This document shows, piece by piece, positions 3,077-4,888 of a DNA stretch of 64,000 bases. A model generated the notes under the pieces. The model saw only the letters and a list, made by a program, of their open reading frames with translations, did no database searches and had not been told where the DNA came from. The translations under genes were made by a program, and so were the position numbers. The stretch is from Pseudomonas sp. FP198 (GTDB taxonomy: Bacteria > Pseudomonadota > Gammaproteobacteria > Pseudomonadales > Pseudomonadaceae). Positions within the stretch are counted from its first letter, which is position 1. Every line of letters starts with the position of its first letter. Where the stretch lies: assembly GCF_030687895.1 (NCBI RefSeq), contig NZ_CP117452.1, positions 1,195,501 to 1,259,500 on the forward strand, in the 5' to 3' direction.

Positions 3077-3364
3077 ATGGAAAGTATCAGCCTGTTGCTC
3101 AATGAAGCCTTGAGCCCGTATCAGGTTACGCTCACGCCCTCCGGTACCAAAGGCGAATGCCTGGTAACGCTGAAGAATTCCTCGGGGGCCATCATGGTCG
3201 AACGGCTGTTCAACCAGGCCCAGCTGACCGACAAACGCCAGCTGACCGACGTGGTCGACGGCCTGCATCGCGATGTGCTGATTGCCGAGGGGCGCCTGGA
3301 GCCGTGTGTCATCGCGGCGTTACGTAATGTGGCGCGCGACAAGGTCATGCTTGCTGCTAATTGA
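3077..3364 (+). CDS. DUF3509 domain protein
   Basis: 95 residues beginning MESISLLLNEALSPYQ. A ribosome site AAGGGTGA sits just before this ATG; an upstream in-frame ATG at 2996 has no such site and would start upstream of the predicted promoter. The protein is small, soluble and without signal peptide or membrane segment. It matches the DUF3509 family of Pseudomonas proteins, whose function is unknown. An AlgU-like promoter immediately upstream suggests envelope-stress control. It is monocistronic, followed by a separate small-RNA-like unit. Confidence 0.85.
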   Translation: MESISLLLNEALSPYQVTLTPSGTKGECLVTLKNSSGAIMVERLFNQAQLTDKRQLTDVVDGLHRDVLIAEGRLEPCVIAALRNVARDKVMLAAN

Positions 3365-3378
3365 GCGACATCCCGCGG

Positions 3379-3406
3379 GAACCTTCCTACGTTCTAGCGA
3401 GTCAGA
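3379..3406 (+). promoter_or_regulatory. AlgU-like promoter for candidate small RNA
   Basis: GAACCT at 3379-3384 and TCAGA at 3402-3406 are 17 bases apart. The -35 differs from GAACTT by one base. No open reading frame of note follows, but a structured segment ending in a terminator does. Confidence 0.6.
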
Positions 3407-3412
3407 CTTTTT

Positions 3413-3519
3413 ACCAACAAGAGCAAGCATTGTGCTCCGGTGCTTGTAGCTTGTTGTACGGACCTTTAAGGGTCACGTTTAACCCCGAGTTGTCTCCCCA
3501 CTTCTCGGGGTTTCTTTTT
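3413..3519 (+). ncRNA. Candidate small regulatory RNA, about 107 nt
   Basis: Between the AlgU-like promoter and the terminator lies a non-coding segment with two hairpins. The first is long: CAACAAG at its base pairs with CTTGTTG, and GCAAGCA pairs with TGCTTGT, enclosing the loop TTGTGCTCCGG. The second is the terminator stem at 3481-3513. A single-stranded linker of about 20 bases, GGACCTTTAAGGGTCACG, joins them and contains a small GGACC/GGGTC stem. Promoter, hairpin and terminator in tandem fit an independent small RNA. I do not recognise it as a named family. The 5' end is estimated from the promoter. Confidence 0.5.
3481..3519 (+). terminator. Rho-independent terminator of the candidate small RNA
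   Basis: AACCCCGAG at 3481-3489 pairs with CTCGGGGTT at 3504-3512 and is followed by TTTCTTTTT. Confidence 0.85.
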
Positions 3520-3569
3520 GCCTGGTGTTTATGGCCAGGATGCTCTGCGTCAGCCAAGACAGAATCCTT

Positions 3570-3655
3570 GTGGGAGCGAGCCTGCTCGCGAAAGCGGTTT
3601 GTCGGTCGATAGCATGTCGACTGGTCCGATGCCTTCGCGAGCAGGCTCGCTCCCA
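3570..3655. repeat. REP pair (GTGGGAGCGAGCCTGCTCGCG type)
   Basis: Two inverted REP units face each other across about 45 bases, the right one ending at TCCCA. It sits between the small-RNA terminator and the convergent end of the CoA-transferase gene. Confidence 0.9.
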
Positions 3656-3688
3656 GCGTGGATCTTCCTCTATCCGAAGATTTGCTCC

Positions 3689-4888
3689 TTAGACGGCACC
3701 ATCGGTGCGCAGCCTGGCGACCTGCTGCGCATCGTAGCCAAGCTCACCGAGCACCTGTGCCGTGTGCTCGCCCAATGCTGGCCCGACCCATTCGGCTGTC
3801 CCTGGTGTGTCGGAAAGCTTCGGTACGATCCCCGGCATCTTGAACGCCTTGCCATCCGGCAGCCTGGCTTGCAGGAACATCTCGCGGGCGAGAAATTGCG
3901 GGTCGCTGAACATGTCCTCGGCACTGAAGATCCGGCTCGCCGGCACGCCGGCCTGGTTCAACTGGTCGATGACGGCATCCAACGGCAGCGAGTTAACCCA
4001 GCGATCAATGACCCCATACAACTCGTCGCGGCGTTCGTCACGGCCATCGTTGCTGGCGAGCTGCGGGTCGTTCGCCAGGTCGTCCCGGCCAATGACCTGC
4101 ATGAAACGCTTGAAGATGGCGTCACCGTTGGCGCCGATCTGTACATGCTTGCCGTCGGCGCTGGTGTGGATGGACGACGGCGTGATACCGGGCATGATGT
4201 TGCCGGTGCGTTCGCGGATGAAACCGAACACGTCGAACTCCGGCACCATGCTTTCCATCATGGCAAAAATCGCTTCGTATAGCGCCACGTCCACCACCTG
4301 GCCGGTTCCGCCGTTGACCTCCCGGTGACGCAAGGCCATCAGCGCGCCGATCACCCCCCAGAGCGCGGCGATCGAGTCGCCGATGGAGATACCGGTGCGC
4401 ACCGGTGGGCGATCCTCGAAGCCGGTGATGTAGCGCAGTCCGCCCATCGACTCACCGACGGCGCCGAACCCGGGCTGATCCTTCATCGGCCCGGTCTGGC
4501 CGAAGCCTGATAGCCGGACCATGACCAGCTTCGGATTCAGTGCGTGCAACACGTCCCAGCCCAGGCCGAGCTTTTCCAGCACGCCGGGGCGAAAGTTTTC
4601 GATCAGGATGTCGGCTTCGCCAAGCAGTTTTTTCAGGATCGCCAGGCCTTCGGGGTGCTTGAGGTTCAGCGTCACGGACTTTTTGTTGCGTGCCTGGACG
4701 AACCACCACAAGGACGTGCCTTCATACAATTTGCGCCACTTGCGCAGCGGATCGCCGCCGTCCGGCGATTCGACCTTGATGACCTCGGCACCGAATTCAC
4801 CGCAGATCCGCGAGGCAAAAGGGCCGGCGATCAGTGTGCCGAGTTCGATGACCTTGACGCCGGCAAGAGGTTTGGCAGTAAGCGACAT
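3689..4888 (-). CDS. CaiB/BaiF-type (class III) CoA-transferase
   Basis: 399 residues from MSLTAKPLAGVKVIELG. Class III CoA-transferases move CoA between carboxylic acids through an aspartyl-CoA thioester. Family marks are the N-terminal VIELGTLIAGPFASRICGE segment, the NLKHPEG and IENFRPGVLEKLG motifs, and Asp171 in SIGDSIAALWG as the likely catalytic residue. The reading frame extends upstream to 4993, but the start at 4888 fits the family. The gene is divergent from the YaeQ gene. The substrate cannot be deduced from the sequence; no acyl-CoA ligase or dehydrogenase gene is adjacent. Confidence 0.88.
   Translation of the reverse strand: MSLTAKPLAGVKVIELGTLIAGPFASRICGEFGAEVIKVESPDGGDPLRKWRKLYEGTSLWWFVQARNKKSVTLNLKHPEGLAILKKLLGEADILIENFRPGVLEKLGLGWDVLHALNPKLVMVRLSGFGQTGPMKDQPGFGAVGESMGGLRYITGFEDRPPVRTGISIGDSIAALWGVIGALMALRHREVNGGTGQVVDVALYEAIFAMMESMVPEFDVFGFIRERTGNIMPGITPSSIHTSADGKHVQIGANGDAIFKRFMQVIGRDDLANDPQLASNDGRDERRDELYGVIDRWVNSLPLDAVIDQLNQAGVPASRIFSAEDMFSDPQFLAREMFLQARLPDGKAFKMPGIVPKLSDTPGTAEWVGPALGEHTAQVLGELGYDAQQVARLRTDGAV

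Follow-up and report, generated by a model that had tools for sequence, protein, structure and literature searches.

A probable AlgU-driven, ErsA-like small RNA gene next to a DUF3509 gene in Pseudomonas

The DNA analysed here (the window) is a stretch of 64,000 nucleotides from the genome of Pseudomonas sp. FP198. It contains an element that, judged by comparison of sequences, is in all likelihood a genuine small RNA. Folding and covariation across related genomes lend strong support to the RNA and to its structure. We propose that it is probably a free-standing gene driven by AlgU and switched on by envelope stress, whose product would act in trans through two conserved loops on G-rich sites; its mode of action and its targets are what we infer from these loops and from the RNAs that it resembles. 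The original prediction had placed the RNA at the right positions, while missing its middle hairpin, its two conserved C-rich loops and its resemblance to ErsA. Coordinates are collected in Table 1.

Table 1. Features of the small RNA locus (window coordinates).
Feature	Position	Strand	Evidence and remarks
DUF3509 protein (PF12021)	3077..3364	+	94.8 bits; syntenic upstream neighbour, outside the RNA
AlgU/sigma-E-type promoter: -35 GGAACCT (3378-3384), N17, -10 TCAGA (3402-3406)	3378..3406	+	Conserved in 84 orthologues
Small RNA, putative primary transcript, about 107 nt	3413..3519	+	Folding z, covariation; start put about 7 nt downstream of the -10 box, near 3413; 3' end in U run
Hairpin 1 (7 + 10 pairs, small internal bulges), apical loop UGCUC	3415..3456	+	Fold, covariation
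GCUCC, conserved apical-loop element, candidate pairing seed 1	3434..3438	+	Conservation in orthologues
Hairpin 2, covarying (GGACC/GGUC vs GGUCU/AGGCC types)	3458..3478	+	Fold, alignment A1, covariation
CGUUUAA linker, hairpin 2 to terminator; possible Hfq contact	3476..3482	+	Conserved columns in A1
Intrinsic terminator stem with C-rich loop	3481..3512	+	Fold, covariation
CUCCCC terminator loop, candidate pairing seed 2	3494..3499	+	Predicted unpaired; conserved CCC
U-rich 3' tail (UCUUUUU)	3513..3519	+	Sequence, fold

The RNA has a predicted folding energy of -47.0 kcal/mol, compared to -25.7 +/- 3.3 kcal/mol for 200 shuffled sequences, none of which was as low (z = -6.6). Its complement folds less well (z = -4.6), and two U-G pairs are nearly invariant in alignment A1 (48/49 and 49/49 sequences), which makes the forward strand the likelier RNA strand. 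The long hairpin and the terminator of the original prediction are both present; the layout of a single hairpin followed by a linker did not stand, as a second hairpin lies in between, giving three. The linker itself is partly paired in the window's own predicted fold. A simple terminator scan did not list the terminator hairpin and flagged part of hairpin 1 instead, probably because the terminator's loop, taken together with its small inner pairs, exceeds the length that the scan allows. One 98-nt orthologue (L122) is predicted to fold without the middle hairpin, which suggests that hairpin 2 may be dispensable in that lineage.

Alignment A1 contains 49 distinct RNAs (L004, a duplicate of L002, was excluded), with four helices and 31 pairs. 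Double-sided changes are found at 9 of the 31 pairs, against 3.1 in shuffles, and in 52 cells, against 9.9 in shuffles; 99.7% of cells are paired, compared to 37-46% when the partners are slid. By the weaker measure of further pair types the count is 22, against 20.1 when shuffled, a value reached by 15 of 500 shuffles. Alignment A2 consists of 47 diverged sequences fitted to the structure of the covariance model, a procedure that favours pairing; it excludes L128, a second and weak match in genome G015 that has no syntenic gene. Its stem sequences are widely different. It has 225 double-sided cells, against 68 in shuffles, and 91.2% of its cells are paired, against 76.4% shuffled and 34-50% slid; 22 of the 31 pairs show a double-sided change, where shuffles already give 17.8. 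When the 47 sequences were each folded alone, as an alignment-free check, the mean z was -4.8 and the weakest -1.5. Structural covariation, which the original prediction had set as a test, is therefore strong in both alignments. The union of A1 and A2 used below comprises 84 orthologous loci, L052-L063 not being counted in it.

A BLAST search with positions 3370-3525 gave matches in 198 of 298 genomes of the same genus, including FP198's own. R2, a covariance model broader than the model built from A1 (R1), matched 247 of the 298 at E 0.001, six of them weakly (E 3e-5 to 8e-4, uninspected); some of the genomes scanned also gave training sequences. In the family sample, R1 matched 20 of 198 genomes, four of them outside the window's genus (two in g2, one each in g8 and g9), and in the order sample, under stricter filters, it matched 2 of 194, both of the window's genus. 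A further 40 genomes were chosen for their weaker BLAST matches (20), for having no BLAST match (15) or as members of other genera (5); R1 matched 29 of these at E 0.05, and one match (G127:C80, 23.3 bits) was excluded from the fetched loci. Orthologues beyond the window's genus thus occur in three further genera of Pseudomonadaceae. In the sister genus g9, R2 gave a match in 25/25 genomes at E 0.05, strong only in G423. The ErsA signature is carried by 23 of the 30 matching rows, one more locus being too short to check; g9 is therefore counted as 1/25 for this RNA, because its weak matches are mostly ErsA itself.

A GTDB pattern scan for the promoter plus GCTCCG found at least 116 loci, all of which were tested with R1. 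The RNA is held by 25 of these (17/80 and 8/36), all titled Pseudomonas; that these have the promoter and GCTCCG follows from the search pattern itself. Among the matches listed, the RNA is missing from one of 26 loci titled Pseudomonas (L200) and from 90/90 others. The species names are a sample: RNA-positive among the matches listed are P. fluorescens, P. mandelii, P. koreensis, P. helleri, P. paralactis, P. migulae, P. fulva, P. capeferrum, P. guariconensis and P. sichuanensis.

The AlgU-like promoter of the original prediction, GAACCT-N17-TCAGA, is found where it was placed. Joined to GCTCC as a single pattern, it has one occurrence across the 64 kb of the window and none in 100 shuffles. 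Promoters of the 84 orthologues were scored as the best site within 72 bases, a span that begins 60 bases upstream of the model's first position and reaches 12 bases beyond it. The form GAAC[CT]T-N15..18-TCN[AGT]A is perfect (11/11) in 72 of them, with one mismatch in 9, two in 2 and three in 1. The spacer is 17 nt in 51, 16 in 32 and 18 in one (L070), where the best-scoring site is probably the wrong pick and GAACGA-N17-TCAGT can be seen by eye. Among 336 control intervals of the same length, located 200-572 bases upstream, there was no perfect site and there were 14 with one mismatch; the controls are mostly inside genes, so that their composition is unlike that of the promoter region. Other AlgU genes of FP198 offered no calibration of the motif, because the exact pattern GGAACYT-N14..17-TCWGA is unenriched in this genome (2 sites, one being the promoter described here, against 3 in a reversed control).

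PMC3247240 gives GAACTT-N16-17-TCcaA as the AlgU consensus, and the promoter has this form, with -35 GAAC[C/T]T, a spacer of 16-17 nt and -10 TC..A upstream of the start. It also resembles the promoter of the small RNA ErsA, which is described as AlgU-dependent (PMC8395346): an anchor was found in 36 of 41 ErsA loci of related genomes, and of these 34 carry GAACTA/GAACTT-N17-TCAGA and 35 the TCAGA box. On these grounds of sequence AlgU is the likeliest sigma factor, and the AlgU control originally suggested for the RNA gains support from the 84 orthologous promoters. A different ECF factor, SigX or one like HrpL, might read the promoter instead: HrpL promoters have the same GGAAC -35 box, and AlgU-like and HrpL motifs mingle in a study of strain DC3000 (PMC3247240). 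However, the same source gives the HrpL -10 box as CCAC, whereas here it is TCAGA in 64/84 orthologues, another sequence in 20 and TCNNA in 81/84. HrpL is disfavoured by this box, and the near-constant TCAGA of AlgU-dependent ErsA likewise speaks against another factor, a reading that we consider fairly unlikely.

The gene order around the RNA is conserved. In the window the DUF3509 gene ends 5' of the promoter, a CoA-transferase III gene (CaiB) lies downstream on the opposite strand, and genes for a solute-binding/PAS protein and threonine synthase are found farther upstream. The neighbourhood shared by the orthologues, the diverged RNAs included, is thrC / DUF3509 / CaiB / YaeQ / recJ: at least one of thrC, SBP/PAS, DUF3509, CaiB, YaeQ and recJ flanks the RNA in the fetched flanks of 84/84 loci, DUF3509 being detected in 78 and CaiB in 70. 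At twelve loci where the RNA persists (L110, L114, L115, L117, L118, L120, L121 and L123-L127), DUF3509 is merely 44-56% identical to that of the window. The RNA also persists at L068, L102, L103, L112, L116 and L119, where DUF3509 went undetected in the fetched flanks. At 10/84 loci (L066, L071, L118, L120, L121 and L123-L127) the -35 box overlaps the last DUF3509 codons (...GTFA stop), tying the promoter and the protein end together there. Just 3' of the terminator, the window has a near-perfect inverted repeat (3571-3655; 25-nt arms, 96%, 35 nt between), which we take to be of the REP/REPIN type; its core, GCGAGCAGGCTCGCTCC, has 48 copies in 464 kb of the FP198 genome, nine of them within the window.

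This arrangement raises the question of whether the element is the terminator and 3' UTR of the DUF3509 mRNA, lacking a promoter of its own, and the short RNA a processed 3' end. Between the DUF3509 stop codon (3364) and the element, no terminator is evident in the window, so read-through transcripts would end at the small RNA terminator too, and the DUF3509 mRNA may do so; the -35 overlap at ten loci points the same way. Against this, both promoter boxes are conserved while the spacer and flanks vary, six of the 84 loci keep the RNA with DUF3509 undetected, and hairpins 1 and 2 covary with no evident role in termination. Moreover, at two loci of genus g2 (L067 and L069) DUF3509 and the promoter have between them a GC-rich hairpin with a U tail (about -21 kcal/mol), which argues for an independent transcription unit. 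A processed 3' UTR is thus an improbable account of the element, and a free-standing gene remains our preferred reading.

When 50 loci are aligned with the window, the GTGCTCC loop, the GTTTAACCCC linker, the terminator loop and the promoter boxes stand out as conserved blocks among variable stretches. GCUCC is found in all 100 distinct orthologues, although 17 of 101 loci were fetched with a pattern that contains it, and in 35/35 diverged orthologues (L064-L071, L101-L127), which were found with R1, itself containing the motif. It is also present in 47/47 A2 sequences, with at least three of the five bases unpaired in each predicted fold. CCC lies within the last predicted hairpin loop in 97/100 distinct orthologues. 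A stable three-hairpin RNA with conserved loops would fit in form an RNA that titrates a protein, either Hfq or of the Rsm/CsrA type, rather than pairing with mRNA. Rsm proteins need GGA, whereas the loops conserved here are rich in C. Hairpin 2 of the window does have a GGA, but it is unconserved (GGUC types being common in A1), and by eye A1 shows no prominent A-rich Hfq/Crc motif like AANAANAA. We therefore think a protein sponge quite unlikely, and favour pairing in trans. That the element encodes a small protein is hardly credible. An open frame of 83 aa with a TTG start does span 3361-3612, but substitutions in the stems are compensatory and there are indels in the loop of hairpin 2. Of 100 distinct orthologues, 44 have no ATG at all; across the 100, the longest closed ORF per sequence has a median length of 16 aa and never exceeds 30. 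A coding sequence can thus be rejected, as the original prediction had it.

The original prediction also did not recognise a named Pseudomonas small RNA, and this held: when 4227 Rfam families (Rfam 15) were searched against the window, none gave a match at the gathering score anywhere in it, and membership of a known Rfam family is rejected. At E 10, the region 3300-3700 has seven matches, namely four microRNA models, which overlap the inverted repeat, together with NsiR1 and anti-hemB, both weak small RNA matches, and ErsA (Pseudomon-1 RNA, RF01719). The last is the best sub-threshold match over the RNA itself (22.4 bits, cut-off 50). Among six diverged orthologues RF01719 scores 26.9-33.1 bits in four and gives no match at E 1 in L066 and L071. 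ErsA proper, above the cut-off, was found in 47/47 family genomes (among 57 relatives and 11 chosen genomes), including all 11 of the chosen genomes. A second RF01719 match at E 0.001 is found in 5 of the 47 (G020, G021, G298, G304 and G315), all five overlapping the small RNA locus at 30.4-36.0 bits, which is unlikely to be chance; the other 42, FP198 included, have no second match. In the reverse direction, R2 scores the FP198 ErsA at 22.4 bits, below an unrelated-looking match of 27.3 bits (400 kb), and an R1 search of L051 at E 10 did not report ErsA. Sub-threshold ErsA-model matches also occur in two other families of the order (G486:C38:32305-32420, 45.8 bits; G492:C42:1886-1998, 37.3 bits), and are possible distant relatives of ErsA.

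The two RNAs have much in common. Both occur in Pseudomonadaceae, with an AlgU-type promoter (GAACT[A/T]-N17-TCAGA for ErsA), a GCUCC element, a hairpin before the terminator and a terminator loop containing CUCCCCA. They differ in locus and are found together in one genome: in FP198 ErsA is separate, at G000:C1:36097, whereas the RNA described here lies between DUF3509 and CaiB and scores far below the ErsA cut-off. ErsA of P. aeruginosa is located in the polA-engB region (PMC8575079). The GCUCC of ErsA falls outside predicted stems in 11 of 12 sequences folded, and would sit at the border of the U-rich domain described as unstructured (PMC5819304, PMC8575079), whereas here it caps a long hairpin. 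Common descent is suggestive; the shared traits could reflect descent or convergence, and we therefore file the RNA as ErsA-like rather than as ErsA. It is conceivable, if doubtful, that the two form an ancient duplicated pair of separately encoded AlgU-driven RNAs, present together across much of Pseudomonadaceae, which share the CUCCCC/GCUCC pairing loops and divide between them the post-transcriptional repression of envelope genes. In enterobacteria, MicA and RybB likewise divide post-transcriptional repression for sigma-E.

In the mechanism that we propose, RNA polymerase with the envelope-stress sigma factor AlgU would start at about 3413 and stop at 3519. The product would be an RNA of about 107 nt with three hairpins, its structure backed by covariation and its transcription and sigma factor read from the sequence. 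The GCUCC loop and the CUCCCC terminator loop would pair in trans with G-rich ribosome-binding sites or early coding regions, and pairing would lower translation of the target mRNAs, probably with help from Hfq through the U-rich linker and tail. This would be a mode like that of ErsA in Pseudomonas and sX13 in Xanthomonas. The AlgU response would then have two repressing arms, ErsA and this RNA, each encoded independently. The logic is that of the enterobacterial sigma-E small RNAs MicA, RybB and MicL, which act in trans and are driven by the envelope-stress sigma factor, since a sigma factor can itself only activate; these were compared only via Rfam, with no family at threshold in the window.

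HPnc5490 of Helicobacter is also called RepG. Its C/U-rich loop is described as a pairing element (PMC3771888), a likeness by description, in an unrelated organism. In sX13 (RF02232), three C-rich loops act on GGGG (4G) motifs near start codons (PMC3771888). Both sX13 and the RNA described here have three stem-loops with C-rich apical loops, and those of the latter are stable, with conserved loops predicted to be unpaired. They differ in that sX13 lies at the polA locus, and RF02232, searched at E 10, does not match the window region; its single match, a weak one, is in a diverged orthologue (L069, 30.0 bits, cut-off 50). sX13 acts without Hfq (PMC3771888), and Hfq use therefore cannot be assumed here. 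ErsA represses translation of algC and oprD (PMC8395346, PMC7264166); it also activates anr and amrZ, for which it has a long pairing region located in the part that is unstructured (PMC8575079, PMC5819304). The RNA described here has no unpaired stretch of comparable length, so that a purely repressing role is the simpler guess. In the FP198 genome, the seed-plus-start pattern GTGGGGAG-N2..13-ATG has 6 sites, against 4 in a reversed control, and none of the six is a convincing target, in this search of one genome with one exact pattern.

Alginate, repair of the envelope and adaptation to the host all fall under AlgU control in Pseudomonas. In the literature cited here, ErsA is the only small RNA called AlgU-dependent by experiment. 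Among the titles and starts of abstracts listed in a literature search, with most subscription journals and supplements outside its reach, there was no paper on a small RNA at the thrC-recJ locus. In P. syringae, the ncRNA PSPTO_5670 is reported to have an AlgU-like motif upstream (PMC3247240); it may be this RNA, ErsA or another, and a catalogue entry for the RNA may thus already exist. The RNA is of a known sort, possibly paralogous to ErsA. Roughly four fifths of the species sampled from the window's genus carry it, and it would warrant an Rfam family of its own. If it is indeed a second AlgU-driven small RNA, its defined promoter, defined structure and two candidate seeds would open the repressing arm of AlgU control to direct testing.
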